Assembly (NCBI GenBank): GCA_021792365.1 | Contig: JAJYUT010000003.1 | Coordinates: 868,001 to 932,000, forward strand | Direction of reading: 5' to 3' | DNA: 64,000 nt | Source of the DNA: Pseudomonadota bacterium | Lineage (GTDB): Bacteria > Pseudomonadota > Alphaproteobacteria > Dongiales > Dongiaceae | Shown here: positions 22,624 to 42,994 of the stretch, in pieces | Numbering within the stretch: the first letter of the stretch is position 1 | Layout of the letters: each line of letters starts with the position of its first letter | Notes under the pieces: model-generated | Database searches by the model: none | The model's input: only the letters and a program-made list of their open reading frames with translations | Told to the model about the DNA's origin: nothing | Program-made: the position numbers and the translations under genes

Positions 22624-23238
22624 CTAGAGAGTAATGGCCTTCACCAGCGTCCGGTTCTGCCGCCGAATGCGGGCTAGCAGCTCGGCCACCGTCATGCCTT
22701 CCTGCTTCACGAAGACCGTGAACATCATGTTGGTGTTATTGAAGATCATCTCGCCGATCGCCTGTGCGTCGGCGTCGACCTGCACCAGGCCGAGGGACTG
22801 CAGCTTTTCGATGAGCTTGCAGGTCTGGCTCGTCAGCGCCTCGTCAAGCTCGCCATACGCAATTCCGAACGGACTGCCAGGCTGCTGCGTGGTGATCGCC
22901 ATGGCTTGGCGCCACATCTCCTTGCTGAGATAGACCAGCGAATGCTCGATGTAGTTGGCGATGAGCTTGGCCACGGCCTTCTCGGGATTGAGCGGCGGCC
23001 TGGCAATCACCTGCTCGCCGGCCGCAAGCACTTCGTGGACTTCCATCGAGACAATGGCCACCAGCAGGTCGCCCTTGTTCCTGTAGTAGTTGTAGATGGT
23101 GCCGATCGACACCTCGGCGGCGGCGGCGATCGCCTCCATCTTCACCGCATCGTAGCCCGAGCTACGGAACAGGTCGGCAGCGGCTTCGAGAATGCGCCGG
23201 TGCCGGTCGGCCTTGTGCTTGGCGCGCAGGCCCGCCAT
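22624..23238 (-). CDS. TetR-family regulator
   Basis: 204-residue repressor-type regulator. The N-terminal HTH (about residues 10-55) reads RILEAAADLFRSSGYDAVKMEAIAAAAEVSIGTIYNYYRNKGDLL when joined across its parts; only short pieces are diagnostic (ILEAAADLF, VSIGTIYNYYRNKGDL). The C-terminal domain is the usual ligand-binding helical bundle. The ATG at 23238 has GGGAG five bases upstream; an ATG at 23268 would add ten residues but lacks a ribosome site. It is divergent from the second polyamine-type importer, which it probably represses. Confidence 0.88.
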   Translation of the reverse strand: MAGLRAKHKADRHRRILEAAADLFRSSGYDAVKMEAIAAAAEVSIGTIYNYYRNKGDLLVAIVSMEVHEVLAAGEQVIARPPLNPEKAVAKLIANYIEHSLVYLSKEMWRQAMAITTQQPGSPFGIAYGELDEALTSQTCKLIEKLQSLGLVQVDADAQAIGEMIFNNTNMMFTVFVKQEGMTVAELLARIRRQNRTLVKAITL

Positions 23239-23328
23239 GGGATCTCCCGGAATTTGGAATTGACTCATTTTTGTAATCAGTTCATTTTCGGCACAAACAT
23301 GAACAAATGGCAAGGAGGCAATGTCACC

Positions 23329-24396
23329 ATGCTCTCGTTCCGTCTTGGCCGGCGCCTGGCCGGCGCGTCCTTCGGCATTCTCGCGCTGTATGGCGCAAGC
23401 GCGGCCAACGCCGCTGATGAGCTTAACGCGCTGGTCTGGTGCGACCATTCCGATCCCAACCTCCTGGCGCCGTTCGAGGAAGCGAACGGCGTCAAGGTGA
23501 ACGTGAAGGAGTTCGAGGGCACCGGCGCCGGCCTCGCCATTGTCGAGCAATCGCAGCCCGGTGACTGGGACGTGATGGTGATCGATTCTATCGATGTGCG
23601 CCGCGGCGTCGACCGCGGGCTGTTCGCGGAACTGCCCGAGGACAAGCTGCCCCTCGGCGACCTGTTCCCGGAGGTGCGCATGGACGACATGACCGTGATC
23701 GGCGGCAAGCGCTACGGCATCACCGAAAAGTTCGGCTACAACACCATCGGCTTCAACAAGTCCAAGGTCGATGCCGCCGACATGCAATCGCTGTCGATCC
23801 TGACCAACGACAAATACAAGGGCCGGGTCGCCATCTATGACTATTACCTCCCCGTGATCGGGCTGGCTGCCATGTCCATCGGCAAGAAGACGGCCGATTT
23901 GACCGAGGCCGATCTGCCGGCGATCAAGGAGGTGCTGCTGAAGATGAAGGCCAATGCCAAGGCGGTGACCGACGTCGTCTCCAGCCAGACCGCGCTGGCG
24001 ACCGGCGAGGCCGACATCCTGGTCGGCGGCGGCGAATGGGTGAGCGCTGTCATCGCCAAGGAGAACCCGGACCTCGATTTCTCGGTCCCGGACGAGGGCG
24101 CGGTGCTGTGGTCGCAGTCGCTCGCCATGTTCAAGGATTCGAAGAACCCGGACCTGGCGCTGAGGTTCATCCAGTACGTGCTGAGCCCCGAGGGCCAGGC
24201 GCGCCTTGCCACCTCCTCCTGTTACTGGGGCATGCCCGCCAACGCCAAGGCGGCGCTGAACGATGAGCAGAAGGCGATCCTGCGCTTTGCCGAGCAGCCG
24301 GAGTTCCTGAAACGCGCGCAGCCCTATCCCGCACCGAGCGAGGAGCTGGACAAGAAGATGCAGGACGTATGGACGGAGATGCTGCAGGCGCAATGA
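23329..24396 (+). CDS. Periplasmic binding protein of second polyamine-type importer
   Basis: 355-residue solute-binding protein. The start at 23329 follows AGGAGG (23313-23318) and gives a compact signal peptide (ASFGILALYGASAANA, cleavage near ADE); an ATG at 23299 is possible but has no ribosome site. The mature protein begins ELNALVWCDHSDPNLLAPFEE and has SQPGDWDVMVID, typical of the SBP_bac_6/8 PotD-like group. It delivers ligand to the two permeases encoded next, the first of which overlaps by ATGA. No stem-loop separates this binding protein from its permease, unlike the other two importers here. Confidence 0.92.
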   Translation: MLSFRLGRRLAGASFGILALYGASAANAADELNALVWCDHSDPNLLAPFEEANGVKVNVKEFEGTGAGLAIVEQSQPGDWDVMVIDSIDVRRGVDRGLFAELPEDKLPLGDLFPEVRMDDMTVIGGKRYGITEKFGYNTIGFNKSKVDAADMQSLSILTNDKYKGRVAIYDYYLPVIGLAAMSIGKKTADLTEADLPAIKEVLLKMKANAKAVTDVVSSQTALATGEADILVGGGEWVSAVIAKENPDLDFSVPDEGAVLWSQSLAMFKDSKNPDLALRFIQYVLSPEGQARLATSSCYWGMPANAKAALNDEQKAILRFAEQPEFLKRAQPYPAPSEELDKKMQDVWTEMLQAQ

Positions 24397-25232
24397 GCGC
24401 CGGGCGGCAATCCCTTGCCGGCTGGGCCAGCGTCTCGCCGGCTTTGCTGTGGACGCTGGTCTTTTTCGCAGCGCCTTTCGCGGCGATGGCGGCGGTGAGC
24501 CTGTTCCCCAAGGATGGGGGCGGCTTCAGCCTTGCCAACTACACGCAGTTCTTCGCCAATCCCAGCTATTGGCGGGCCCTGACCAACTCGCTGGAAGTGA
24601 CGCTGATCGTCACCGCCGTCTCCATCCTGCTCGCCTATCCCTTCGCTTGGATCCTGGCCTTCGTGGTGCCGGAGCGCTGGCAGCGCCTTGCGCTGATGCT
24701 GGCGGTGCTGCCGTTCTGGACCTCCTATGTCGTGCGGTCCTATTCCTGGCTGCTGGTGCTGGCGGAGAAGGGCGCGGTCAACAACGCGCTGATCCATCTG
24801 GGGCTCCTGGCCGAGCCGATCCAGCTTGCCAACACGCGGGCGGCGACGGTGATCGGCTTCGTGCATTTCTTCGTCATGCTGCTGACGCTGACCATCTTCG
24901 CCAACCTGAAGCAGCTCTCGCCGAACTACCGCAAGGCGGCCGCCGATCTCGGCGCCGGCCCGATCCGGTCGTTCATCCACGTCATCCTGCCGCTGACCAT
25001 GCCGGGCATCATGGTCGGCGCGTTCCTGACCTTCGTGCTGGCGATCGGCGACTACATCACGCCGCAGATCCTGGGCGGCAACAACGAGCTGCTGATGCCG
25101 CAGCTCATCATGATGCAGATCGGCCGGCGCGGCGATTTCGCCTCCGCCTCGGCCCTCTCCATCATCCTGATGGCGGTGGTGACGGTCGCGTACCTGCTCT
25201 GCGCCCGCTGGCTGAAGATCGAGCGCGCGTGA
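24393..25232 (+). CDS. Polyamine-type ABC importer permease (PotB-like)
   Basis: 279-residue inner-membrane permease with six predicted helices and an EAA loop at KAAADLGAGPIRSFIHVILPL. The ATG overlaps the binding-protein stop. It forms a heterodimer with the next permease, whose start overlaps this stop by one base (TGATG). The order binding protein, permease, permease, ATPase matches one complete importer. Confidence 0.92.
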   Translation: MSAGRQSLAGWASVSPALLWTLVFFAAPFAAMAAVSLFPKDGGGFSLANYTQFFANPSYWRALTNSLEVTLIVTAVSILLAYPFAWILAFVVPERWQRLALMLAVLPFWTSYVVRSYSWLLVLAEKGAVNNALIHLGLLAEPIQLANTRAATVIGFVHFFVMLLTLTIFANLKQLSPNYRKAAADLGAGPIRSFIHVILPLTMPGIMVGAFLTFVLAIGDYITPQILGGNNELLMPQLIMMQIGRRGDFASASALSIILMAVVTVAYLLCARWLKIERA

Positions 25233-26005
25233 TGGCGCGCATCGTCTCGACCCTCTATGCGGCGGCCGTCTACGGCTTCATCTTCCTGCCCGTCATCGTC
25301 CTGGTGCTGTTCTCGTTTCAGGCCACGTTGTTCCCGATCCCGCCCTTCACCGGGCCGTCGCTGCGCTGGTACGAGGCGGTGCTGCGCGACGCGCGGCTGA
25401 CCGACGGCCTCCTCAACTCGATGCTGGTGGCGGTGGCGACCTCGGCCTTGGCGACGCTGCTGGGTTTCCTCTCTGCCTGGGGCTTTGCGCGGTTCCATAT
25501 GCCGGCCTCTGCGCTGATGCGCGGGCTCATCACCCTGCCGCTGACGGTCAGCTATCTCATCATCGGCATGGGACTGCTGATCCTCTTCAACTGGATCGGC
25601 ATCCCCAAATCGTTGATCACCGCCGGCATCGGCCATGTGGTGATCAACCTGCCGCTCTGCTTCGCCATCATCTACAGCCAGATGGGCGATCACCAGGCGA
25701 ACGTGGAACGCGCCGCCCGCGATCTGGGGGCGAAGGAATGGCAGGTGCTGTTGCTGGTCACCGCGCCGATGCTGTGGCCGGCCTTGTTCGCGAGCTTCTT
25801 CCTGTCCATGACCTTCTCCTGGGACGAGTTCGTCATCGCTTTCCTGCTCACGCGCTTCGACACCACGCTGCCGGTCGAAATCTGGAACCTGCTGCGCGCC
25901 GGGCTCAATCCCAAGACCAACGCGGTAGGATCGCTGGTGTTCGGCGTCTCGATCGTGCTGGCGATCGTGTTCGAGCTGGTCGCCTTCCGGAAGCGCCCCG
26001 CATGA
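25232..26005 (+). CDS. Polyamine-type ABC importer permease (PotC-like)
   Basis: 257-residue permease starting at the TGATG junction. Six helices; EAA loop in RAARDLGAKEWQVLLLVTAPM. The segment SFFLSMTFSWDEFVIAFLL is close to PotC-type permeases. Coupled to the ATPase gene by ATGA. Confidence 0.92.
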   Translation: MARIVSTLYAAAVYGFIFLPVIVLVLFSFQATLFPIPPFTGPSLRWYEAVLRDARLTDGLLNSMLVAVATSALATLLGFLSAWGFARFHMPASALMRGLITLPLTVSYLIIGMGLLILFNWIGIPKSLITAGIGHVVINLPLCFAIIYSQMGDHQANVERAARDLGAKEWQVLLLVTAPMLWPALFASFFLSMTFSWDEFVIAFLLTRFDTTLPVEIWNLLRAGLNPKTNAVGSLVFGVSIVLAIVFELVAFRKRPA

Positions 26006-27045
26006 GCACCCTCGATATGAGCGCCCTCGTCTCCATCGAGCACATCTCGCAGGATTTCGGGCAGACGAAGGCGCTGGACGACGTCTCCCTCGCGATCCAG
26101 CCCGGCAGCTATACCGTGCTGCTCGGCCCTTCCGGCTCCGGCAAGACGACCCTGCTGTCCATACTGGGCGGGTTCCTGCAGCCGAGCGCGGGGCGCGTGC
26201 TGATCGGGGGCGCGGATTGCACCGGCATGGCGCCGGCCAAGCGCCCGACCGCGACGGTGTTCCAGGACTACGCCCTGTTCCCGCATATGAGCGTCGGCAG
26301 CAACGTCGCCTTCGGCCTGCGCATGCGGGGGATCGCGAAGGCCGAGCGGCTGGCCAGGGCGCTGGACATGCTGCGCCTGGTCGGCCTCGATCAGGCCTTC
26401 GACAACAAGCCGCATCAGCTCTCCGGCGGCCAGCGGCAGCGCGTGGCGCTGGCCCGCGCCCTGGTGGTCGAACCGGCGGTTCTCCTGCTCGACGAGCCCC
26501 TGGGCGCCCTCGACCTCAAGCTGCGCCGGCAGATGCAGGACGAGCTGAAGGCGATCCAGAAGCGCGTCGGGACAGCCTTCGTGCACGTGACCCACGACCA
26601 GGAAGAGGCCATGGCGCTGGCTGACCACATCGTGGTGATGAATAACGGCCGGATCGAGGATCAGGGCCTGCCGGATCGCGTCTATGGCAGGCCGGCGACC
26701 CGTTTCACCGCCACCTTCATGGGCGAGAGCACCATCCTCGCGGGCTCCGTCGAGGGAAAAGGCCGGATCAGGACCGCGCTCGGCGTCTTCGAGGTGGCCG
26801 GCGACATCGCGAGCCCCGAAATCCATGTCGCCATCAGGCCCGAGCATGTGCAATTGGGCGGTGACATCCTGGCGATCGTGACGCATGTGGTCTATCAGGG
26901 CAGCTTCAAGCGGGTGACCGCGGTACCGAACGGCGCGCCCGATATCCATCTGCTTGCGCGCCTGCCGGCCGACAGTCCTGTGAGCGTGGACATGCCGGTG
27001 TCTCTCGGCATCGATCCCGACCGGCTGATCATCCTCGCGCGTTAG
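26002..27045 (+). CDS. Polyamine-type ABC importer ATPase (PotA-like)
   Basis: 347-residue ATPase of the second importer. Motifs: Walker A GPSGSGKTT, Q-loop VFQDYALFPHMS, signature LSGGQRQRV, Walker B VLLLDEPLGALD and H-loop HVTHDQEEAM, then a TOBE domain after about residue 265. Last gene of the operon. It is followed by a 236-base gap that carries the promoter of the diol dehydratase operon. Confidence 0.93.
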   Translation: MSTLDMSALVSIEHISQDFGQTKALDDVSLAIQPGSYTVLLGPSGSGKTTLLSILGGFLQPSAGRVLIGGADCTGMAPAKRPTATVFQDYALFPHMSVGSNVAFGLRMRGIAKAERLARALDMLRLVGLDQAFDNKPHQLSGGQRQRVALARALVVEPAVLLLDEPLGALDLKLRRQMQDELKAIQKRVGTAFVHVTHDQEEAMALADHIVVMNNGRIEDQGLPDRVYGRPATRFTATFMGESTILAGSVEGKGRIRTALGVFEVAGDIASPEIHVAIRPEHVQLGGDILAIVTHVVYQGSFKRVTAVPNGAPDIHLLARLPADSPVSVDMPVSLGIDPDRLIILAR

Positions 27046-27093: not shown

Positions 27094-27147
27094 GGTCAAA
27101 CGGCGCCGCCCAAAGGTCAAGAACCAGGATCGCAAGGACCCTATCCT
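27094..27147 (+). promoter_or_regulatory. AraC-type promoter of the diol dehydratase operon
   Basis: GGTCAAA at 27094-27100 and GGTCAAG at 27115-27121 are direct half-sites exactly 21 bp apart; a -10-like TATCCT lies at 27142-27147, 27 bp from the start of the second half-site. The same spacing is found upstream of the transporter operon (30760) and the BMC operon (38328). The second half-site overlaps where the -35 should be, as for class II activation by AraC proteins. The leader is about 130 bases. I saw no cobalamin riboswitch core in it. Confidence 0.7.
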
Positions 27148-27281: not shown

Positions 27282-29576
27282 ATGCCGGATAAGCCGCAAG
27301 GCGCGCCGCAGATCAAGGTGAACCGGTGGCGGCGCTTCGCTGATTGGGACGAGCGGCCGCTGCGCCTCGACAAGTTCGCCGTGGAGGACGCGGCCGCGGG
27401 TTTCGCCGCCTTCTCCTCTCCGAACGATCCGAAGCCGGGGCTCGAGATCGAGAGCGGCAAGGTCAAGTCGATGGACGGCATCGCCGCCGCCGACTTCGAC
27501 ATGATCGACCTGTTCATCGCCACGCACCACCTGGACCTGGAGGTCGCGCCGGAGGCGATGGCGATCCCGTCCCACGAGATCGCGCGCATGCTGGTGGACA
27601 TGAATGTGCCGCGCGCGAAGCTGGTGCGCCTCGCCCATGGCATGACGCCGGCGAAGTTGGCGGAGGTGGTGGCGGAGCTGAACGCCCTCGAGATCGCCTT
27701 CGCCTACAGCAAGATGCGGGCGCGCCACACGCCGGGCAACCAGGGCCACGTGACGAATGCCAAGGACGACCCGCTGCAACTGGCGGCGGACGCGGCCACC
27801 GCCGTCGCCTTCGGGTTCGACGAGATCGAGACCACCATGCGCGTCGCGCGCAACGCCTGGTCCAACGCCGTCGCCTGCGCGGTCGGCGCCGCAATCGGGC
27901 GCTGGGGCACCCTGTTCCAGTGCTCCAGCGAGGAGGCGGAAGAGCTGCAGATCGGCATGGCGGGATTCACCTCCTATGCCGAAACGGTCTCGGTCTACGG
28001 CACGGAGCGCGCCTTCATCGACGGCGACGACACGCCCTGGTCCAAGGCGTTCCTCTCCACCGCCTATGCCTCGCGCGGCATCAAGATGCGCTGCACCTCC
28101 GGCGCGGGTTCCGAATTGCTCATGGGTTTCCACGAAAGCAAGTCGCTGCTCTATCTCGAGGCGCGCTGCCTCTGCCTGCAGCGCGGCATGGGCGTGCAGG
28201 GCACGCAGAATGGCGGCATCGACGGCGCGCCCGTCACCTGCACGATTCCCGGCGGCGTGCGGGAATTGATGGCGGAGAACCTGCTGGCGGTGTGGCTCGA
28301 CCTCGAATGCGCGTCCGGCAACGACGCGCGGCCGACAGAATCGGAGATCCGCGTCGGGGCCAAGATCCTGCCCTATCTCATCGCCGGCTCGGACCTCATC
28401 TGCTCGGGCTTCGGCTCGATCCTGAAATACGACAACTCCTTCAATCCCTCCCTGATGAACGGGGAAGAGCTCGAGGATTTCCTGGTTCTGCAGCGGGACT
28501 TTGAGGCCGATGGCGGCCTGACGCCGGTGGGCGAGACGGAGATCCTCGACCTGCGCAGCCGCGCGGTGCAGGCCATCGCCGCGGTGTTCGAGGAGCTGGG
28601 CCTCAGCCAGCCGACCGCCGACATGATGGCAAGCGTCGTCGCCGCCTCGGGGTCCGAAGAGACGCGCAGCTATGCGCCGCGCGACGTCTCGTTCATCAGC
28701 GAGGCCATCAAGCAGCGCGGCATCAACGTGATCGACGTCATCAGGGCGCTGGCCAGGCGCGGCTACCGCACCGAGGCGCAGAATCTGCTGAACGTCGTGA
28801 AGCTGCGCGTGACGGGGGACTACCTGCAGACCTCCGCGATCGTGCGCAACGGGCGCATTATCAGTGCGGTCAATGATCCCAACGAATATCTTGGCCCCGG
28901 CACCGGCTATCGCCTCAGCGGCGAACGGCGCGATCGATTGATGAACATCCGCGACGTCCTCGACCGCGACGAAGTCCTGCGCAACGAAGCCCGTCACGCC
29001 AAGACCGAGACGCGCCTCATCCAGTACCGCACCATGGGCGCTGCGGAGCCCGGCAAGGACCCCAAGGAGGTCCTGATCGGCATCTCGCCCGCCTTCGGAT
29101 TGAAGATCTTCCGGACGCTGGGCGGCCATCCGCTCTCGGCGGTGCTGGATGCGCTGATCTCCGGCATCCGCGCCAAGGGCGGCACGCCGCGCATCGTGCG
29201 CCTGCGCCACACAGCGGACACCTCGTTCCTCGGCCTCAGCGCCGCGCGCCTCGCCGGTTCCGGCATCGGCATCGGCATCCAGGCCAAGGGCACGGCGGTG
29301 ATCCACCAGCGCGATCGCCTGCCCCACCACAATCTGGAGCTGTTCTCCAACGCGCCGATCACGACGCTGGAGCACTATCGGCGCTTCGGCGAGAACGCGG
29401 CGGCCTACGCGATGGGCGAGACGCCGGAGCCGGTGGTGGTGCCGACCAAGGGCCAAGCCCTGGGCGCGCGGTTCCATGCGCAGGTTGCCCTGATCTACGC
29501 CATCGAGACCGGCCTCACCGAAGACGGCGCAGCGCCGGAGGATGTCGAGATTCGCCTCGCGGAGGCCGTGCAGTGA
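27282..29576 (+). CDS. B12-dependent diol/glycerol dehydratase, large and medium subunits fused
   Basis: 764-residue protein joining the catalytic large subunit (PduC/GldA-like, about 1-550) to the medium subunit (PduD-like, about 575-745). Large-subunit landmarks include FIATHHLDLEVAPEAM, MRARHTPGNQGHVTN, SGAGSELLMGFHESKSLLYLE in parts, and GGVRELMAENL; medium-subunit landmarks are GISPAFGLKIFRTLGGHPL, RLRHTADTSFLGL and GIGIGIQAKGTAVIHQRD. It dehydrates a 1,2-diol or glycerol to an aldehyde using adenosylcobalamin. The fusion removes the N-terminal extension that targets PduD to microcompartments, so this enzyme is probably cytosolic. The small-subunit gene overlaps its stop. No DdrA/DdrB-type reactivase gene is seen in the window. 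Confidence 0.92.
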   Translation: MPDKPQGAPQIKVNRWRRFADWDERPLRLDKFAVEDAAAGFAAFSSPNDPKPGLEIESGKVKSMDGIAAADFDMIDLFIATHHLDLEVAPEAMAIPSHEIARMLVDMNVPRAKLVRLAHGMTPAKLAEVVAELNALEIAFAYSKMRARHTPGNQGHVTNAKDDPLQLAADAATAVAFGFDEIETTMRVARNAWSNAVACAVGAAIGRWGTLFQCSSEEAEELQIGMAGFTSYAETVSVYGTERAFIDGDDTPWSKAFLSTAYASRGIKMRCTSGAGSELLMGFHESKSLLYLEARCLCLQRGMGVQGTQNGGIDGAPVTCTIPGGVRELMAENLLAVWLDLECASGNDARPTESEIRVGAKILPYLIAGSDLICSGFGSILKYDNSFNPSLMNGEELEDFLVLQRDFEADGGLTPVGETEILDLRSRAVQAIAAVFEELGLSQPTADMMASVVAASGSEETRSYAPRDVSFISEAIKQRGINVIDVIRALARRGYRTEAQNLLNVVKLRVTGDYLQTSAIVRNGRIISAVNDPNEYLGPGTGYRLSGERRDRLMNIRDVLDRDEVLRNEARHAKTETRLIQYRTMGAAEPGKDPKEVLIGISPAFGLKIFRTLGGHPLSAVLDALISGIRAKGGTPRIVRLRHTADTSFLGLSAARLAGSGIGIGIQAKGTAVIHQRDRLPHHNLELFSNAPITTLEHYRRFGENAAAYAMGETPEPVVVPTKGQALGARFHAQVALIYAIETGLTEDGAAPEDVEIRLAEAVQ

Positions 29577-29998
29577 CCGGCAAGCTCACCATCATGGATT
29601 ACCCCCTGGCGGAGAAGCGCCCCGACCTGGTGCGCACGCGCGGAGGCAAGAAGCTGGAAGACCTCACCCTCGCGGCGGTTGAGGCAGGCGAGGTCGCGCT
29701 CGAGGATCTGCGCATCACGCCGGATGCCCTGCGTCAGCAGGCGGAGATCGCGCGCGCGGCCGGTCGACCCACCCTGGCGCGTAATTTCGAGCGCGCCGCC
29801 GAGCTGGTCGATGTTCCGCAGGACGTGATCCTCCGCATCTACGAGCTGCTCCGCCCCGGCCGCGCCAAGGGCAAGGCCGACCTCCTCGAAGCCGCCCAAC
29901 TCCTGCGCGGCACCTACAAGGCCGAGGGAATGGCCCGCTTCGTCGAGGAAGCTGCGGCCGTCTATGAGCGCCGCGGCCTGTTCTCCAAGCGCTTCTGA
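29573..29998 (+). CDS. Diol dehydratase small subunit (PduE-like)
   Basis: 141-residue small subunit. Recognisable PduE features: DYPLAEKRPDLVRT near the start, EDLRITPDALRQQAEIARAAGR, LARNFERAAELVDVPQDVIL and FVEEAAAVYERRGLF near the end. The GTG start overlaps the large-subunit stop (GTGA) with GGAGG upstream. Compared with microcompartment PduE it lacks the roughly 35-residue N-terminal targeting helix and linker and begins almost at the conserved core. Forms the dehydratase with the fused subunit. Confidence 0.92.
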   Translation: MTGKLTIMDYPLAEKRPDLVRTRGGKKLEDLTLAAVEAGEVALEDLRITPDALRQQAEIARAAGRPTLARNFERAAELVDVPQDVILRIYELLRPGRAKGKADLLEAAQLLRGTYKAEGMARFVEEAAAVYERRGLFSKRF

Positions 29999-30009
29999 GC
30001 CAGTCCCGC

Positions 30010-30744
30010 ATGCGCAACTACCTGATGATCGTGCCGGAAGCGACGGCGCCCGCCGGGCTGGTGGGCGAGACGCTGATCGCGGACGGCGCCGGCTATGACA
30101 CGCTGATGCCGGTCGAGCGCTATGCCAGTCACGCGCCGTTCGACTATCCGGGCATTCCCAGGGCGCCGGGCCGCTATGCCGGCCTGGTGGTGCTTGGCGG
30201 TCCCATGAGCGCGAACGACACCGACAAGCACCCTTTCCTCGCGGACACCATGGCCCTGATCCGCGCCTTCGCGGCGGAGGACCGGCCGGTGCTCGGCATC
30301 TGCCTCGGCGCGCAGGTCATCGCCCGCGCCTTCGGCGGCGAGGTCTATCGCATGGACGCGTTGGAATCCGGCTTCCGCACCATGGCGGCGACATCGGAGG
30401 GAAGGCGCGATCCCGTCTTCTCCGCGCTCGGCGCCGAGGTCATTTCGTTTCAGAACCACTTCGAGGCGGTGCGTGGCATTCCCGAGGCCGTCCCGCTGGC
30501 GACCGGCGGCGCTTGCCCGATCCAGGCGTTCCGCGTAGGCCGCGCCACCTATGCCACGCAGTTCCACCCGGAGGTAACCCTCGACATCGTGCGCGACTGG
30601 ATCCGCACGTTCGGGACGGCCTTCACGGACCCCGAGCCACGGCTGCTGACCGAGCTCGACCGCCAGTTCCAGCAGAACTTCGCCCGCCACCGCGCTCAAT
30701 GCCAGGCGCTGGTGCGGAGCTGGATGGCTTTATCCAAGGGCTAA
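30010..30744 (+). CDS. Class I glutamine-amidotransferase-like protein
   Basis: 244-residue stand-alone GATase1-fold protein resembling the glutaminase half of GMP synthase or gamma-glutamyl hydrolases. The nucleophile cysteine lies in GICLGAQ and the His-Glu pair in QFHPEVTLD, so a catalytic triad is present. It starts 11 bases after the dehydratase small subunit and is therefore in that operon. It may hydrolyse a gamma-glutamylated amine or amino-alcohol, as PuuD does in putrescine breakdown; this is inference from context. The C-terminal 35 residues (LDRQFQQNFARHRAQCQALVRSW in parts) form a predicted helix beyond the domain. Confidence 0.87.
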   Translation: MRNYLMIVPEATAPAGLVGETLIADGAGYDTLMPVERYASHAPFDYPGIPRAPGRYAGLVVLGGPMSANDTDKHPFLADTMALIRAFAAEDRPVLGICLGAQVIARAFGGEVYRMDALESGFRTMAATSEGRRDPVFSALGAEVISFQNHFEAVRGIPEAVPLATGGACPIQAFRVGRATYATQFHPEVTLDIVRDWIRTFGTAFTDPEPRLLTELDRQFQQNFARHRAQCQALVRSWMALSKG

Positions 30745-30759: not shown

Positions 30760-30813
30760 TGTCAAAATCCCGCTGGCAGATGTCAAGATCGGTTGGCCGT
30801 GCCGCTCTAGGCT
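30760..30813 (+). promoter_or_regulatory. AraC-type promoter of the transporter/SDR operon
   Basis: TGTCAAAAT at 30760-30768 and TGTCAAG at 30781-30787 are 21 bp apart, with TAGGCT at 30808-30813 exactly 27 bp from the second half-site start. The first nine bases are identical to the BMC operon site at 38328. TGTCAAGATCGG (30781-30792) recurs unbroken on the minus strand next to the AraC gene. A short palindrome GGAAC-N5-GTTCC (30824-30838) follows in the leader, which is about 140 bases long. Confidence 0.8.
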
Positions 30814-30958: not shown

Positions 30959-32122
30959 ATGTTCACATCGAAACTGTCGCGCCGGAACTTCATGCAGCAA
31001 TCGGCGCTATGGGCTTCCGCGTTCGCGGCCGGCGGCACGCTTGGCGTGCGCTCGGCCATGGCTGATCGTTCCAAGGAACTGAATATCCTGTGCTGGGAAG
31101 GATACAATTCCGCCCAGGTGCTGGATCCCTTCCGGGAATCGAGCGGCGCCACCGTGAAGGCCGAATCGCTCACCAACGACCCCACCATGATCAACCGCCT
31201 GCGCGCGGGCGAGATCAACGTGTGGGATCTGATCAACGTCAACAATCCCTGGGCGCGCGAGGTCATGTGGCCCGAGAAGCTGATCAAGCCGCTCGACCGC
31301 GCCAGGTTCGAGCCGTACTACGAGAAGATGCTGCCGGCCTTCAAGCCGCCCTACAAGTGGGCGCTGGACGGCAGCGGCCAGGAACTGATCGGCATGGCCC
31401 AGCGCTTCGGCCCGTACAGCTTCGTCGTGAACACGGACAAGATCAGCAAGGAAAGCGCAGAGGACCAGGGCTGGGACTTGTGGAACGACTCAGCCAATGC
31501 CGGGAAATACGGCATCCTGGAATCGGATGACTGGAACGTGTTCAATCTGTGCTGCATAGCCGGCTTCGATCCGTTCAAGGAGCATAGTGACGACGAAGTG
31601 GCGAAGTTCACGGACGCCGCCAAGCGCGTGTTCAAGGGCGCCAAGCTGGTCGGCGACATCGCGACCATGAACCAGGCGCTGGTCTCGGGCGAGATCGACT
31701 TCCACATGACCGGCGGCACCTATTCAGTCTCGCCGGCGCGGGCTGACGGCGCCACCAACTTGCGCGCGATCACGCCGAAGAAAGGCCCGATGGCCGGCGG
31801 CAAGGGCGGCATCGCCTGGATCGAGATCACCTCGGTGGTCAACAATCCGGACGTGTCGCCGCTGGCCGAGCAGTTCCTGGAATACGTCCAGGATCCTGAG
31901 ATGTCGCACACCGTCGCCTTCGCTGAAGGCACCTTCAATCCGGTGAGCCAGATGGGCAACCCCGATTGCTTCAAGCTCTTCACCAAGGAAGAGCTGGATG
32001 CAATTCAATGGGACACGCTGGAAGAAGAGATGGCGGCCTCGGCCGAATACGACATCGTGCCGGACTATGATAAGCTGCTGGACATCATGACCTCGGCGAA
32101 GCGCGAGGCCTCCGGCGGCTGA
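30959..32122 (+). CDS. Tat-exported periplasmic binding protein of third polyamine-type importer
   Basis: 387-residue solute-binding protein. It begins with a twin-arginine signal (SRRNFMQQSALWASAF), unlike the Sec signals of the other two binding proteins, and so is exported folded. The mature sequence ELNILCWEGYNSAQVLDPFRE places it in the PotD-like SBP family. GAGAGGG lies upstream of the ATG at 30959. First gene of the operon with the shared AraC-type promoter, followed by a strong stem-loop and then ATPase, two permeases, a short-chain dehydrogenase and an aldolase-like protein. The ligand is likely the amino-alcohol, diol or related amine fed to the pathway. Confidence 0.92.
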   Translation: MFTSKLSRRNFMQQSALWASAFAAGGTLGVRSAMADRSKELNILCWEGYNSAQVLDPFRESSGATVKAESLTNDPTMINRLRAGEINVWDLINVNNPWAREVMWPEKLIKPLDRARFEPYYEKMLPAFKPPYKWALDGSGQELIGMAQRFGPYSFVVNTDKISKESAEDQGWDLWNDSANAGKYGILESDDWNVFNLCCIAGFDPFKEHSDDEVAKFTDAAKRVFKGAKLVGDIATMNQALVSGEIDFHMTGGTYSVSPARADGATNLRAITPKKGPMAGGKGGIAWIEITSVVNNPDVSPLAEQFLEYVQDPEMSHTVAFAEGTFNPVSQMGNPDCFKLFTKEELDAIQWDTLEEEMAASAEYDIVPDYDKLLDIMTSAKREASGG

Positions 32123-32143
32123 TACCCGCGGCAACAGGCTCGA

Positions 32144-32190
32144 CGGGGCTCTTTCGTGGCAAGATAGCCGAGATCAGCGAAAGAGCCCCG
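32144..32190 (+). promoter_or_regulatory. Intercistronic stem-loop after the binding-protein gene
   Basis: A perfect 13-bp inverted repeat, CGGGGCTCTTTCG (32144-32156) with CGAAAGAGCCCCG (32178-32190), lies between the binding protein and the ATPase genes. Only CTCCTTTTGA follows, so termination would be partial. It probably stabilises the binding-protein message and reduces downstream expression, the same arrangement as at 8011-8041. Confidence 0.75.
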
Positions 32191-32239
32191 CTCCTTTTGA
32201 TTCCGGAATCCAGTTGAAGATGGCTCGGCATCGGATTGC

Positions 32240-33307
32240 ATGACTACGCGTTCACCCGTCATTGATCTTCGGCAGATCACCAAGAGGTTCGGCAATTTCA
32301 CTGCGGTGCACAGCATTGATCTGTCGATCGGCGAGGGCGAGTTCTTCACCATTGTCGGCCCGTCGGGCAGCGGCAAGACCACGGTCCTGCGCATGCTGGC
32401 AGGCCTCGAGAGTCCGACCGGCGGCGACATCCTGCTGCGCGGCCAGCGCATCAATGACGTGCCGGCGAACCGCCGGCCGACCTGCATGGTGTTCCAGTCG
32501 CTGGCCTTGTTCCCGCACCGCACGGTCGGTCAGAACATCGAGTTTCCGCTCAAGATCCGCGACGTGGCGCCCGAGGAGCGCAGGAAGCGCGCGCTGCAGC
32601 TGATGGCGCAACTGCGCCTGCCGGAGAGCTATTACGGCAAGAACGTCACCAAATGCTCCGGCGGCGAGCGCCAGCGCGTCGCGCTGGCGCGCGCCCTCGC
32701 CTACAACCCGGACATCCTGTTCTTCGACGAGCCGCTCTCCGCCATCGACTACAAGCTGCGCAAGACGCTCGAGAAGGAACTGAAGGACATCCACCGCGAG
32801 ACCGGCAAGACTTTCATTTACATCACCCATTCGCTCGAGGAAGCGATGGTGATGAGCGACCGAATCGGCGTGATGCGGCAAGGCCGCCTGGTGCAGGTGG
32901 GAACGCCCAACGAGATCTACACCGCGCCCAACAGCAAATTTGTCTCGGAATTCATCGGCGATGTGAACATCGTGCCGGTGCGGCTGGTGAACGGCAACAC
33001 GCTGCAATCTGATGAGCTGGGGGCGCAGTTCGTCGCGCCCCCCATGCCCAGTGGATTCGCGGCTGGCCACCTGGTGGTGCGGCCGGAATCCTTGCGCATC
33101 ATCGAGCGGCGCGAGGATGCGGAGAACGCCCTCCGCGGCAAGCTCTACAACGAATACGCCCTCGGCTCCCGCATCCAGTACCAGGTGCGCGTGGGCGAGC
33201 AGGTCTTCATCGTTGAGCGGCTGCGGCAGCAGGCGCTGGGCAAGCAGCGGGATAGCGATGTCCTGATCGGCTGGAACACCGCCGACAGCATCCTGGTGGG
33301 CGATTGA
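32240..33307 (+). CDS. Polyamine-type ABC importer ATPase (PotA-like)
   Basis: 355-residue ATPase of the third importer. Walker A GPSGSGKTT, Q-loop VFQSLALFPHRT, a slightly unusual signature CSGGERQRV (cysteine in place of the common leucine), Walker B ILFFDEPLSAIDYKL and H-loop YITHSLEEAM; a TOBE domain occupies the last 100 residues. It is encoded 117 bases after the binding protein, behind the stem-loop, and overlaps the next permease start by one base (TGATG). Confidence 0.92.
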   Translation: MTTRSPVIDLRQITKRFGNFTAVHSIDLSIGEGEFFTIVGPSGSGKTTVLRMLAGLESPTGGDILLRGQRINDVPANRRPTCMVFQSLALFPHRTVGQNIEFPLKIRDVAPEERRKRALQLMAQLRLPESYYGKNVTKCSGGERQRVALARALAYNPDILFFDEPLSAIDYKLRKTLEKELKDIHRETGKTFIYITHSLEEAMVMSDRIGVMRQGRLVQVGTPNEIYTAPNSKFVSEFIGDVNIVPVRLVNGNTLQSDELGAQFVAPPMPSGFAAGHLVVRPESLRIIERREDAENALRGKLYNEYALGSRIQYQVRVGEQVFIVERLRQQALGKQRDSDVLIGWNTADSILVGD

Positions 33308-34212
33308 TGGCCGAGATCAGCGCACACGAGACGGTCTCCGGCCAGTTGCCGGCCGCGAAACCGGCCGCGTGGCGGCTCGGGCCGGGCCGGGCCAATGCCG
33401 TGCCGATCATCCTCTTCCTGCTGATCGGGTTTGCGGCGCCGCTGCTCGCCGTCATCGGCTACAGCTTCATGCCGCCGCGCACCTTTGGCCTGTGGCAGAC
33501 GCCGACCCTCGAGAACTACGTCAGCGTCTTCACCGGCACCAGCTACATCTCCTTCCTTTGGTCGCTCGGCCTGGGCGCCGCGACGGTGCTGCTGCTCGCG
33601 GTGATCTGCTACCCGGTGGCATACGGGCTGGCGCGAGTGTTCGGCCGCTGGTCGACCTTGCTGACGCTGCTCTTCACGATCCCGCTGTTCGTGTCGGAGA
33701 ACGTGCGGATCTACGGCTGGATCCTGTTCTTCATCAAGAACGGCGTGCTGCTGGGGACGTTCAAGGCCTGGTTCGGCGTCGAGCCGGAGAGCTGGCTTTT
33801 CACCCAGGGCATCATCGTGCTGGGCATGGTCTACGTCTATCTGCCTTTCATGCTGTTCCCGATGACCCTCGGCGTCAGCATGGTGCCGAAGGAGACACGC
33901 GATGCCGCCTTCGATCTCGGCGCCACGCGCTGGCAGGTGTTCAAGGAGGTCGATCTGCCGCTCTCCATGCCGGGCATCGTGATCGGCTTCCTGCTGTCCT
34001 TCGTGCTGGCGGTGGGCGCCATCGCCGAAGCCAAGGTTCTGGGCGGCCAGAAGGTGATCCCGATCACTCATGACATCGAGATCGCCTTCACCTACTCGCA
34101 GAACTGGCCGCTCGGCTCGGCCCTCGCGGTCCTGCTCATGCTGGTGGTCGGCGCGCTGGTCCTGCTGGTGCTGCGGCGGTTCGACCTCGACACCATCCTG
34201 GGGCGGCGCTGA
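33307..34212 (+). CDS. Polyamine-type ABC importer permease (PotB-like)
   Basis: 301-residue permease. After a cytoplasmic N-terminus of about 30 residues come six helices, the first being IILFLLIGFAAPLLAVIGYSF. The EAA loop reads DAAFDLGATRWQVFKEVDLPL. The ATG overlaps the ATPase stop as TGATG; a TTG one codon upstream is a less likely start. Partner of the next permease. Confidence 0.92.
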   Translation: MAEISAHETVSGQLPAAKPAAWRLGPGRANAVPIILFLLIGFAAPLLAVIGYSFMPPRTFGLWQTPTLENYVSVFTGTSYISFLWSLGLGAATVLLLAVICYPVAYGLARVFGRWSTLLTLLFTIPLFVSENVRIYGWILFFIKNGVLLGTFKAWFGVEPESWLFTQGIIVLGMVYVYLPFMLFPMTLGVSMVPKETRDAAFDLGATRWQVFKEVDLPLSMPGIVIGFLLSFVLAVGAIAEAKVLGGQKVIPITHDIEIAFTYSQNWPLGSALAVLLMLVVGALVLLVLRRFDLDTILGRR

Positions 34213-35021
34213 TGAGCCCGGCGGAGCGATCCCAGCGTTGGCGCGCCAGCTTGCTCTGGGCCTGGGCGCTCTCGGTCGTGGTCTTCATGTACCTGCCGGC
34301 ATTGTGCCTGCTCCTCGCCTCCTCAACCGCGAGCCGCTATTTCATCTTTCCCATCACGCGGTGGGGCTTCGATTGGTGGGAGAAGACGTTCGATTCGATC
34401 CAGATCCGGGAGCTGTTCAAGACCTCGATCTCCATCGCCCTGATCGTCACGGTGATCGCGGTGGTGATCGGGTTCTTCGGCGCGCTCGCCTTCGCGCGCT
34501 ATGACTGGAAGGGCCGCTCGCTCTACCAGAAGCTGGTGCTGCTGCCGATCTTCTTCCCGCAATCGGTCCTGGGGCTGGCGCTGCTGCTCTGGTTCAACGC
34601 GATCGGCCTGCCCTTGTCCTGGAAGAGCGCGGTGTTCGCCCATCTGGTGTGGATCGTGCCGGTGGTGACCCTGGTCATCTCGATCCAGGTCTACAGCTTC
34701 GATCCGGCGCTGGAGGAAGCCGCCTTCGATCTCGGCGCCACGCGCTGGCAGGTGATGAAAGAGGTCACGCTGCCCGTGCTGTTTCCGGGCCTGTTCTCCG
34801 GCGCCTTGTTCGCCTTCCTGCTGTCCTGGGGAAACTTCCCCCTGTCGCTGTTCACGACCGGCGCGGACACCACCGTGCCCGAGTATCTCTATGCCAAGAT
34901 GGTCGCGGGCTATACGCCTGGCGTGCCGGTCCTCGGCACCGTTTCCACGATCACCGCTGCGGTCCTTCTGCTGGGGGGCTATGGGCTGATCACGCTCCGG
35001 CGGCGCGCGCGGCTGAAATAG
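34212..35021 (+). CDS. Polyamine-type ABC importer permease (PotC-like)
   Basis: 269-residue permease beginning at another TGATG junction. Six helices and an EAA loop EAAFDLGATRWQVMKEVTLPV, nearly the same as its partner's loop. Completes the third importer. A strong ribosome site (GAGGGAGG) and an 18-base gap separate it from the short-chain dehydrogenase. Confidence 0.92.
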   Translation: MSPAERSQRWRASLLWAWALSVVVFMYLPALCLLLASSTASRYFIFPITRWGFDWWEKTFDSIQIRELFKTSISIALIVTVIAVVIGFFGALAFARYDWKGRSLYQKLVLLPIFFPQSVLGLALLLWFNAIGLPLSWKSAVFAHLVWIVPVVTLVISIQVYSFDPALEEAAFDLGATRWQVMKEVTLPVLFPGLFSGALFAFLLSWGNFPLSLFTTGADTTVPEYLYAKMVAGYTPGVPVLGTVSTITAAVLLLGGYGLITLRRRARLK

Positions 35022-35039: not shown

Positions 35040-35819
35040 ATGTCTGCATCGTTGAAAGGCAAGTCGGTCATCGTGACCGGCGGCAGCAAGGGCATCGGCA
35101 AGGGCATCGCGAAAGTGTTCGCAGGGCACGGCGCCAAGGTCATGATCGTGGCGCGCAACCTGAAGGATGCCGAAGCAGCGGCGCAGGCGCTGGGCAAGGA
35201 AGGCGCGACCGTCTCCGCCTTCGCCGGCGACATCACCAAGCTCTCCGACATGGAGGCGATGGCAAAGACCGCGGCCGAGCGCCATGGCGGACTGGACGTG
35301 CTGTGCGCCAATGCCGGCATCTTCCCGCAGGCGAAGATCGAGGAGATGAGTCCCGAAACGTGGGACGAGGTGGTGAACACCAACCTCAAAGGCACCTTCC
35401 TGTCGATCAAGGCCTGCGTGCCCTACCTCAAGAAGAGCGGCCAGGGCCGGATCGTCATCACCTCCTCCATCACCGGCCCGATCACGGGCTATCCCGGCTG
35501 GACCCACTACGGTGCGACCAAAGCCGGGCAGCTCGGCTTCATGCGCACGGCCTGCATCGAGCTCGCGAAATACGGCATCACGGTGAACGCGGTCATGCCT
35601 GGCAACATCATGACCGAAGGCCTGCAAGGCCTGGGCGAGGAGTATCTGAAAACGATGGCGGCTTCCATTCCGCTGAAGCGCCTGGGCGCGGTCGAGGATA
35701 TCGGCAATGCCGCGGCGTTCTTCGCCTCCAAGGAAGCGGCCTATGTCACCGGCCAGACCATCATCGTCGACGGCGGCCAGATCCTGCCGGAATCGCTGGA
35801 GGCGCTGGCATCGGCCTAG
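35040..35819 (+). CDS. Short-chain dehydrogenase (candidate amino-alcohol dehydrogenase)
   Basis: 259-residue classical SDR. Cofactor motif TGGSKGIGKG, NAG in LCANAGIF, and the catalytic Ser, Tyr and Lys in SSITGPITGYPGWTHYGATK. GAGGGAGG lies before the ATG. SDRs are a standard part of RMM-type microcompartment loci, where one is proposed to interconvert aminoacetone and 1-amino-2-propanol. Co-transcription with the third importer and shared regulation with the BMC operon support that assignment here, but FabG-like sequence alone does not fix the substrate. Confidence 0.9.
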   Translation: MSASLKGKSVIVTGGSKGIGKGIAKVFAGHGAKVMIVARNLKDAEAAAQALGKEGATVSAFAGDITKLSDMEAMAKTAAERHGGLDVLCANAGIFPQAKIEEMSPETWDEVVNTNLKGTFLSIKACVPYLKKSGQGRIVITSSITGPITGYPGWTHYGATKAGQLGFMRTACIELAKYGITVNAVMPGNIMTEGLQGLGEEYLKTMAASIPLKRLGAVEDIGNAAAFFASKEAAYVTGQTIIVDGGQILPESLEALASA

Positions 35820-37159: not shown

Positions 37160-38230
37160 CTAGTGCCCCGTCTTCACGCGCCTGTAGCGACGCGGCGAGG
37201 TGCCGGTCCAGCGCGTGAAGGCGCGCGAGAAGGCGCTCAGCTCCGAATAGCCCAGCAGCAGCGCGATCTCCGTCAGCGGCAATTGCCGTTGCTGCAGATA
37301 CATCTCCGCCAGATTGCGCCGCGTCGTCTCCACCGCGTCCTTGTAGGTGACGTTGCGGTCGGCAAGCTCGCGCTGCACCGCGCCGGGCGAGATGCGCAGA
37401 TCATGCGCGATCTGATCCAGCGTCGGATAGCCGTTGGGCAGCCGCATGCGAATGGCAGCACAGATCCGGTCATAGAGCCCGTCCGCCGCCGGCGAGCTTG
37501 GGCCCAGTTGCTCCATGCAGGTCTGCATCACGGCGAGCAGTTGCAGGTCCCGCGCCGGCATGGAGCGGCCCAGGACATCGGTGCGGAACACCAGGGCGTT
37601 GGTCGGCTGGCTGAAGTAGATCGGCGCGTCGAATGCCGATTCATGCTCCTTCCACGACTGCGGGCGCGGATGTTCGAAATGCACCTCGTCCGGTGCCCAT
37701 TTCGGTCCCATCGCCTCGCGGATGACGTTCAGGAACATGCCGAGCGACAGCTCCGCGTCCTGCCGGCGTCCGACGATATCGGGCGCGATGATCTGGTATT
37801 CGAGCCGCAGCAGGCCGTCCTTGCGCCGAACGCAACGCAGGAAGGACGACCCCTGCTGGTAGGGGAAGAGACCGACCAGCGTCTCGAGCGCGCTGCCGAG
37901 TGTCGGCGCGGAGACCGCCGCATAGCCCCACAGGCCGAGATCGCGCGGCATGAACTGGTTGCCGAACCACAGCCCGAAACTGTCCTGCTGCGTGCGGCGC
38001 GCCGCCTCCTCGAACAGCGTGATGAAGGAGGCGAGGCGAAGCTGCAGGGTCGGCTGGCCGGCCATCTCCGGCGCGATGCCGGCATTGCCGAAGATGCTGT
38101 CGATGTCGCCGTGCAGGCGCTCGATGTGGCTGACGATGCCGGTAGCGGCGGACGCGAGGATCGCCGGCTGCGCGCCTGTCGGCGCCGCTGCCGGACCGCC
38201 GTGCTCGGCAGCCTCAACAATCCTGCCCAT
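37160..38230 (-). CDS. AraC-family regulator of the microcompartment island
   Basis: 356-residue AraC regulator with an arabinose-binding-like N-terminal domain (about 35-225; the OruR/ArgR-type architecture) and a C-terminal double HTH (about 260-350: LDQIAHDLRISPGAVQREL, then LTEIALLLGYSELSAFSRAFTRWTGTSPRRYR in parts). It is divergent from the BMC operon. Direct half-sites with 21-bp spacing precede three operons of this island, and a lone inverted half-site lies 46-57 bases from its own start, so it is the best candidate for an activator of all three and for self-control. The inducer may be the imported amine, diol or an aldehyde. Confidence 0.88.
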   Translation of the reverse strand: MGRIVEAAEHGGPAAAPTGAQPAILASAATGIVSHIERLHGDIDSIFGNAGIAPEMAGQPTLQLRLASFITLFEEAARRTQQDSFGLWFGNQFMPRDLGLWGYAAVSAPTLGSALETLVGLFPYQQGSSFLRCVRRKDGLLRLEYQIIAPDIVGRRQDAELSLGMFLNVIREAMGPKWAPDEVHFEHPRPQSWKEHESAFDAPIYFSQPTNALVFRTDVLGRSMPARDLQLLAVMQTCMEQLGPSSPAADGLYDRICAAIRMRLPNGYPTLDQIAHDLRISPGAVQRELADRNVTYKDAVETTRRNLAEMYLQQRQLPLTEIALLLGYSELSAFSRAFTRWTGTSPRRYRRVKTGH

Positions 38231-38327: not shown

Positions 38328-38381
38328 TGTCAAAATTGCCCGCTCACCTGTCAAGCACAGCGCCACCCCCACATCTAGCTT
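38328..38381 (+). promoter_or_regulatory. AraC-type promoter of the BMC operon
   Basis: TGTCAAAAT at 38328-38336 and TGTCAAG at 38349-38355, 21 bp apart, followed by TAGCTT at 38376-38381, 27 bp from the second half-site start. CTA begins the -10 region in all three sites (cCTATCCT, tCTAGGCT, tCTAGCTT). The leader to the kinase start is about 60 bases. Confidence 0.8.
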
Positions 38382-42376: not shown

Positions 42377-42994
42377 ATGGCCGAGCTGCGCTCCTTCATC
42401 TTCATCGACCAGCTTCAGCCGCAGACGTTGTGCTACATGGCGACCTGGATGCGCGGGCGCCTGCCGCGCACCAACATGGCGGCGCAGATCATCGAGGTCG
42501 CGCCCGGCCTCGACATCGAGCCCCTGACCGACGTCGCGCTGAAATACGCCGAGGTCGGCGGCGGCATCCTGGTCGTCGAGCGGCAGTTCGGCTATCTCGA
42601 GTTCCACTCCCGCTCCACCGGCCTGGTGAAGGCGGCCGCGCAGGCGGTGCTGGAATCCCTCGAGGCCCACGAAAGCCAAGCCACCAAGCCGCAGATCCTC
42701 GCCTCCAAGATCGTTACGCGCGTTGATCCGGTTCATGCCTTCCTGATCAACCGCAACAAGATGGGCTCGATGATCCTGCCCGGCGAGTCGCTGTTCGTGC
42801 TGGAGATGCAGCCGGCAAGCTACGCGATCCTCGCCGCCAACGAGGCGGAGAAGCACGCCGACATCAAGGTCATCGACTACCGCATGATCGGCGCGACCGG
42901 CCGCGTCTATCTGTCCGGCGAGGAATCCTCCGTGCGCAGCGCCGCAGCGGCAGCTGAGGAAGCGCTGCAGAACCTGTCGAGGCTGGCGGCATGA
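42377..42994 (+). CDS. BMC-T trimeric shell protein
   Basis: 205-residue tandem-BMC-domain protein that forms a pseudo-hexagonal trimer in the shell facets. Two BMC domains are seen: AAQIIEVAPGLDIEPLTDVALKYAEV with GILVVERQFGYLEFHS in the first, and ILPGESLFVLEMQPASYAILAANEAEK with MIGATGRVYLSGEE in the second (each named here only by short pieces such as EVAPGLDIEPLTD and GATGRVYLSGEE). The sequence style matches the BMC-T of RMM-type loci. It probably provides the large central pore for cofactors or substrates. Confidence 0.93.
   Translation: MAELRSFIFIDQLQPQTLCYMATWMRGRLPRTNMAAQIIEVAPGLDIEPLTDVALKYAEVGGGILVVERQFGYLEFHSRSTGLVKAAAQAVLESLEAHESQATKPQILASKIVTRVDPVHAFLINRNKMGSMILPGESLFVLEMQPASYAILAANEAEKHADIKVIDYRMIGATGRVYLSGEESSVRSAAAAAEEALQNLSRLAA

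Follow-up and report, generated by a model that had tools for sequence, protein, structure and literature searches.

What is the role of a coenzyme B12-dependent diol dehydratase whose gene shares its control with a bacterial microcompartment (BMC) operon, and for which no targeting tag is found? The question is raised by a stretch of 64,000 nucleotides (hereafter, the window) from a Pseudomonadota bacterium of the alphaproteobacterial family Dongiaceae (assembly GCA_021792365.1, contig JAJYUT010000003.1, positions 868,001 to 932,000), whose genome measures 5.43 Mb and is scored as 100% complete. Characterised diol dehydratases are known for their need of a chaperone-like reactivase, and in Pdu organelles they are enclosed in the shell. 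To judge from its sequence, the dehydratase of the window could, with roughly even chances, be a cytosolic B12 enzyme that feeds a pathway of the aminoacetone/1-amino-2-propanol type from an amine-bearing 1,2-diol as its substrate. Among the relatives studied, its occurrence follows that of the pathway's kinase more closely than that of the shell.

The large and medium subunits of this enzyme are one polypeptide, as an earlier note on this DNA had stated. They are encoded by a single frame of 764 amino acids (27282..29576, forward strand), in which Pfam places Dehydratase_LU (PF02286, 716 bits) at residues 15-562 and Dehydratase_MU (PF02288, 81 bits) at residues 603-715. The gene for the small subunit (PF02287, 163 bits; 29573..29998, forward strand) overlaps the large gene by 4 bp, and all three subunit domains of the B12-dependent diol/glycerol dehydratase family are therefore present. 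The NCBIfam matches bear the names of propanediol/glycerol dehydratase subunits, with the large domain above its cut-off and the medium and small domains below theirs. The nearest named relative, the enzyme of Dongia deserti, is 94% identical.

Partners of the dehydratase and their common control

Four enzymes encoded farther downstream on the forward strand are relevant to the role of the dehydratase. These are a short-chain dehydrogenase/reductase (SDR; adh_short families, 35040..35819), an APH-family kinase (PF01636, 38450..39460), a class III pyridoxal phosphate (PLP) enzyme (PF00202, 39461..40768), which its context suggests to be a putative amino-alcohol-phosphate phospho-lyase, and an acylating-type aldehyde dehydrogenase (PF00171, 40779..42374), whose best NCBIfam matches are acylating acetaldehyde dehydrogenases, below their cut-offs. 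The best solved relatives of the SDR are 6ci8 and 6ci9 (312 bits) and that of the kinase is 6ef6 (284 bits); these structures are taken here to be the 1-amino-2-propanol dehydrogenase and kinase of M. smegmatis. Both M. smegmatis papers are in the reference list of MCPdb, and the three codes do not occur in its text. With the shell genes, the kinase, the SDR, the class III PLP enzyme and the acylating-type aldehyde dehydrogenase, the gene set of an RMM/AAUM locus is complete. By analogy with such loci, the kinase, SDR and phospho-lyase would act on 1-amino-2-propanol or aminoacetone.

The partnership with these enzymes extends to relatives of the dehydratase, which were studied in the best 80 of the 169 loci found. 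Of these loci, 55 span at least 17 kb; an SDR, a kinase or a phospho-lyase lies within the fetched stretch in 51 of them (SDR in 47, kinase in 40, phospho-lyase in 28), and a shell gene in 18. For instance, in Azospirillum halopraeferens (L044) the genes for kinase, SDR, dehydratase and small subunit are consecutive on one strand, and in another locus (L074) the dehydratase lies between the kinase and the phospho-lyase, 21 bases after an isochorismatase-like gene.

Whole genomes give a similar picture. The 51 genome handles that were searched represent the genomes of 43 of the 80 loci, long ones having been chosen, and eight further genomes; since two pairs have identical coordinates (G165/G395 and G037/G403), 49 are distinct. 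The kinase is matched in 49 of the 51 handles and a BMC shell domain in 35 (47 and 33 of the 49 distinct ones). The handles without a kinase match are the genome of L046 and G148. The latter is one of the eight further genomes, where its dehydratase match is 45% identical and has Ser at position 314; another of the eight, G163, is matched over residues 13-265 only. Within the clade, the kinase is kept in 14 of 15 genomes that lack a shell. No BMC match is found in the genomes of A. halopraeferens, the Mesorhizobium strains, Roseovarius spongiae or Pseudogemmobacter bohemicus, and metagenome-assembled genomes may seem shell-less through gaps. On a tree of 50 dehydratase rows, the shell label needs seven changes, at least five of them on well-supported branches. 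In a sample of 385 genomes of the class, the kinase occurs in 27, the dehydratase in 8 and both in 7 (Fisher p 2.9e-8, uncorrected for kinship, with five of the seven belonging to one family). The dehydratase is thus very probably linked to an amino-alcohol pathway of the RMM/AAUM kind, and the shell is an optional module in this pathway.

These results alter one part of the earlier interpretation, according to which an aldehyde would be made outside the shell, apart from a phospho-lyase route enclosed by it. Such a separation is not supported, as the dehydratase is usually accompanied by the very SDR, kinase and phospho-lyase that belong to this route. Given these partners, and the retention of the kinase in nearly all shell-less genomes of the clade, the aldehyde outside and the phospho-lyase inside are probably two parts of one pathway.

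Fused dehydratases are also encoded on plasmids of Agrobacterium cucumeris (L084:11823-22843) and Shinella zoogloeoides (L085:11864-22916). Their one-row neighbours are a sugar-type ATP-binding cassette (ABC) importer, an SDR, a phosphotransferase and a class III PLP enzyme, and the stretch contains no annotated shell gene.

A match between the promoters of the dehydratase and of the shell operon, also claimed in the earlier note, is confirmed. A direct repeat, GGTCAAA-N14-GGTCAAG, lies 160 bp before the dehydratase start (27094..27121, forward strand); a second, TGTCAAA-N14-TGTCAAG (30760..30787, forward strand), precedes the operon of the importer and SDR, and a third copy (38328..38355, forward strand) precedes that of the kinase and shell. 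The pattern KGTCAAA-N14-KGTCAAG has exactly these three sites in the whole genome, and its reversed control has none. When one mismatch is allowed, there are still three sites in the window, against 0.01 expected from shuffles. The relative loci, 80 in all, contain 86 copies of GTCAA-N16-GTCAA, and no spacing other than 16 in the range 8-27 gives more than 7. These sites precede the importer (24), the kinase (14), an AraC gene on the other strand (10), the dehydratase (9), the phospho-lyase (6), the second BMC-T gene (4), the aldehyde dehydrogenase (2) and the kinase on the other strand (1), while 16 have no assigned gene. The repeat is likely read by an AraC-type regulator (PF12625 and HTH_18; 37160..38230, reverse strand), whose gene is divergent from the shell operon. 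No Rfam match at the gathering threshold that would point to riboswitch control is found in the window. Another ABC importer set, with matched binding protein, permease and ATPase, lies directly upstream of the dehydratase (about 22906-27045), and the genome-wide pattern search finds no copy of the repeat before it.

Active site and candidate substrate

In an alignment to the solved glycerol dehydratase 9vi2, Asp314, Ala349 and Ser386 of the window correspond to Ser301, Gln336 and Met373 of diol dehydratase. In effect, the Ser/Gln/Met pocket of characterised members is absent in the window, where Asp, Ala and Ser stand instead. The active-site set comprised 82 sequences (the window, 79 loci and the two plasmids), four of which are shorter than 750 amino acids (709-740); L048, which offers a frame of only 77 amino acids, was left out of the counts. 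Asp314, Gly315 and Ser386 are each present in all 82 members of the clade, where the three unfused enzymes used for comparison all have Ser, Cys and Met. Position 349 is Ala in 79, Thr in 2 and Ser in 1, and Gln in the three unfused enzymes. By contrast with this altered pocket, Gln141, His143, Glu170, Glu221, Gln296, Asp335, Ser362 and Phe374 (K. oxytoca numbering), which presumably have metal-binding, substrate-binding and catalytic roles, are kept in 82 of 82 sequences.

One fused enzyme differs from the clade in this respect. L091:8719-11142 encodes a distant fusion of large and medium subunits, 44-45% identical, with Ser at position 314; its genome has no kinase, shell or PF08841 match, and it provides a single natural contrast. 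It is possibly an independent fusion. The fusion was considered as the cause of the Asp signature and rejected, because this enzyme, which stands on a long branch, is fused and yet keeps Ser. The mycobacterial fused enzymes are not among the best 80 of the 169 loci nor among the plasmid rows listed.

In the proposed mechanism, Asp314 would hold the ammonium group of a 1,2-diol that bears an amine, the simplest candidate being 3-amino-1,2-propanediol. Since the Asp would pair with such a group, an amine-bearing diol is put forward as the substrate, with even confidence. It might be brought in by an ABC importer or an amino-acid permease. In the window, the importer comprises a binding protein, an ATPase and two permeases (SBP_bac_8, ABC_tran and two BPD_transp_1; 30959..35021, forward strand). 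Its binding protein is weakly PotD-like, scoring 27.7 bits against the PotD model, far below the cut-off, and is conserved near the dehydratase in 30 of the 55 long loci; an amino-acid permease is near the dehydratase in 19 of 67 loci (one member scanned). Either transporter would be in keeping with an amine-bearing substrate. The product of the dehydratase would then pass through the SDR, the kinase and the phospho-lyase to an aldehyde, and in organisms with a shell, both the formation and the oxidation of this aldehyde would take place within it. The dehydratase itself may release a ketone, aminoacetone, instead of an aldehyde; a ketone would not call for enclosure of this step, and the lack of a targeting helix would then be explained. 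Naming the substrate by means of the second kinase copies in L094 and L095 was attempted and led nowhere.

The main rival has two entries into one pathway: 1,2-propanediol or another neutral diol like it would be the substrate of the dehydratase, 1-amino-2-propanol that of the kinase and phospho-lyase, and both branches would yield the same aldehyde for one aldehyde dehydrogenase. It would fit the conservation of the catalytic residues, which are kept in 80 of the 80 sequences with letters, window included, and also the kinase genomes of the class sample that have the kinase route without a dehydratase (20 of 27). A bifunctional RMM2 shell has moreover been raised as an alternative by Axen et al., in the part of their text available (PMC4207490). 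Nevertheless, a C3-facing pocket changed to Asp/Ala/Ser is odd for binding a methyl group, release of the aldehyde in the cytosol would defeat the purpose of a shell, and the kinase persists in 14 of the 15 shell-less genomes of the clade. Two entries are consequently considered unlikely.

Several observations weigh against the preferred reading, in which an amine-bearing diol feeds the amino-alcohol pathway. In terms of chemistry, the normal geometry of diol dehydratases, with the amine in the C3 pocket, leads to 3-aminopropanal and not to aminoacetone. 3-Aminopropanal does not obviously feed into the SDR/kinase route, while aminoacetone would suit the SDR but needs the opposite regiochemistry, and aminoacetone is therefore a rather unlikely product. 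The uniform Asp count covers near relatives only, being drawn from the best 80 of the 169 loci. The link to the pathway also has exceptions. In Roseovarius spongiae (L046), the enzyme is present and no kinase is matched; in four of the 55 long loci (L026, L036, L043 and L075), SDR, kinase and phospho-lyase are all missing from the fetched stretch; and since 20 of the 27 kinase genomes of the class sample lack a dehydratase, it can be no more than an entry step. In the two plasmids of Agrobacterium and Shinella, the phosphotransferase is unmatched and the neighbouring SDR and PLP enzyme share only 25-30% identity with their counterparts in the window, so that these partners are alike in their domains but are not orthologues; the sugar-type importer beside them is not in keeping with an amine-bearing substrate. 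Finally, of the 77 relative loci with enough upstream sequence, only 14 have the repeat in the 500 nt that precede the dehydratase. The shared control of the window is thus not general, and other relatives control the dehydratase otherwise.

Location and reactivation

No encapsulation extension is found on the medium and small subunits, in agreement with the earlier note. The small subunit of the window has eight residues before its DYPLA core. Its residue 6 aligns with residue 39 of the K. oxytoca diol dehydratase chain 1dio_G, whose longer N-terminal start is taken here to be the encapsulation extension, and its residue 5 aligns with residue 6 of the Klebsiella glycerol dehydratase chain 1iwp_G. 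In 76 relatives, the nearest ATG or GTG is 2-15 residues ahead of the core; in 66 of them there is no in-frame ATG or GTG farther upstream, and in the other 10 the frame is open for a further 24-566 residues. The medium domain, being fused behind the large domain, has no N-terminus of its own. In effect, no N-terminal extension of the PDU type is found on either subunit.

A targeting helix elsewhere in the chain was also sought, with structure prediction included, as the earlier note had proposed. In 21 rows, the N-termini of the fused chains differ in length and sequence and the C-termini stop soon after a conserved stretch, with no common terminal helix in the termini compared. The only candidate is the linker, where segment 565-580 is highly charged and has a high helical moment (0.64). 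It is predicted as a helix at 562-579 that continues into a strand at 580-587 and the medium domain, without a flexible tether. The model, built from 35 sequences, is poor (mean pLDDT 57, pTM 0.49), with the linker helix and medium domain usable. The aldehyde dehydrogenase is different: its C-terminus ends, after a flexible-looking stretch, in an amphipathic helix (DEIRRIVLEELRAAFRK, helical moment 0.67) that is likely an encapsulation peptide.

These features bear on the alternative that the dehydratase is shell cargo, carried by a partner protein or by the amphipathic linker helix. The helical moment and predicted helicity of the linker would suit such a role, and in L049, L070, L073 and L080 the dehydratase gene follows the last shell gene in the same orientation (with an isochorismatase-like gene in between in L049, L070 and L080). 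Nevertheless, in the poor model available, the linker helix enters the medium-domain fold with no flexible tether, unlike the C-terminal helix of the aldehyde dehydrogenase; in 15 genomes of the clade the enzyme occurs without any BMC match, and the termini compared share no helix. Encapsulation is accordingly judged improbable, and a cytosolic dehydratase is most likely.

The lack of a reactivase gene, noted earlier for the window, extends to the whole host genome, in which PF08841 has no match and PF02288 matches only the fused enzyme itself. Of cobalamin genes, CobN and a Cob_adeno_trans match are present in the genome. Likewise, PF08841 is matched in none of the 51 genome handles matching the enzyme (0 of 49 distinct), compared with a reactivase annotated beside the enzyme in all three unfused comparison loci. 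EutA was considered as a substitute reactivase and not accepted, its one match being below the cut-off and covering 55 positions only. A possible explanation comes from the available part of PMC7674605, in which the inactivating pose of glycerol is reported to have its C3-OH in contact with Ser301, and inactivation in lysate is slower for an alpha-beta fusion. A reactivase may perhaps not be needed in this clade because of the subunit fusion and the loss of Ser301. The most complete form of the proposal, in which a new B12 amino-diol dehydratase binds ammonium through its Asp, converts 3-amino-1,2-propanediol or a relative to aminoacetone, and dispenses with reactivase through fusion and Ser301 loss, is doubtful. 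If true, it would open the aminoacetone/1-amino-2-propanol pathway from a new substrate.

Known systems and neighbouring genes

Part of this arrangement is already in print. Fusion and the absence of reactivation-factor genes have been reported for the dhaB1-dhaB2 glycerol dehydratases of Mesorhizobium, Hyphomicrobium and Mycobacterium, where, in the accessible text, reactivation may not exist or may use a different route, and a slightly different active site is cited from Liu et al. 2010 (PMC4777399). As in the window, large and medium subunits form one chain there and the small subunit is separate; Mesorhizobium enzymes are among the 80 loci, with 79-80% identity. That paper places the enzyme in the dha regulon, its main text does not contain the word "microcompartment", and its available part draws no partnership with a kinase or phospho-lyase. 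An ordinary glycerol dehydratase that yields 3-hydroxypropanal, co-regulated but metabolically separate, would agree with this placement and with the database naming as a propanediol/glycerol family dehydratase, but is very unlikely in view of the partnership with kinase, SDR and phospho-lyase and of the Asp in place of Ser301, which contacts the C3-OH of glycerol.

The RMM2/AAUM loci, in the part of PMC4207490 available, combine a shell with a phosphotransferase, an aminotransferase, a short-chain dehydrogenase and an aldehyde dehydrogenase, as the window does. Dehydratase genes beside RMM2 shells were judged by Axen et al. not to be used by the shell (PMC4207490). In contrast, the dehydratase of the window is in the same regulon as the shell operon and tracks the kinase, and the locus is alphaproteobacterial, with an AraC-type regulator and an ABC importer. 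A shell pathway for 1-amino-2-propanol/1-amino-2-propanone has also been predicted in a gut survey, as far as its text is available (PMC6620236). The Klebsiella diol and glycerol dehydratases (1dio, 1iwp and the fused chain 9vi2) share family, subunits and catalytic residues with the enzyme of the window, which differs in being naturally fused, in having no reactivase match and in the changes Ser301 to Asp, Gln336 to Ala and Met373 to Ser. The length and sequence of 9vi2 suggest that it is an engineered fusion of Klebsiella chains.

In the available portions of the open-licence literature, no link between the fused dehydratase and the kinase route was found, nor is the Asp signature named. What is new here is thus the co-occurrence with the kinase, the shell changes on the tree and the pocket fixed in the clade. 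This alphaproteobacterial clade, with no reactivase match in 51 genome handles, no targeting tag found and a fixed change at a residue tied to suicide inactivation, is a direct natural test of what makes a reactivase necessary. In addition, the unexplained RMM2 dehydratase gains a plausible place in a pathway, and the shell behaves as an optional module on an otherwise stable set of enzymes.

The shell genes of the window follow the aldehyde dehydrogenase on the forward strand. They encode a BMC-T (PF00936, 42377-42994), a BMC-P (PF03319, 43449-43706), a BMC-H (PF00936, 43752-44033) and a probable second BMC-T (44102-44737), which has no Pfam match and is named so because it resembles the first and occupies a conserved position in relatives. 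Between the first BMC-T and the BMC-P lies the gene for a protein of 153 amino acids (42991-43452, forward strand) without a Pfam match, whose N-terminus (MIDRTLLRDLVKAVIAEEVAA) resembles an encapsulation peptide. This gene is matched in 14 of the 80 loci, and a BMC-H gene is within the stretch in 16.

The third gene of the dehydratase operon, here and in Dongia-like genomes, encodes a class I glutamine amidotransferase (GATase)-like hydrolase (PF00117; 30010..30744, forward strand) and starts 11 bases after the small subunit. It falls within the span covered by the earlier note (27282-30744), whose text left it unmentioned. Of 67 relative loci, 9 have the GATase cluster, and 8 of these place it downstream of the dehydratase genes. 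In 46 of the 67, an isochorismatase-like amidohydrolase is encoded close to the dehydratase; its gene is missing from the window, and other matches in the genome are at most 36% identical. Both the GATase and the isochorismatase-like amidohydrolase could release an amine from an amide.

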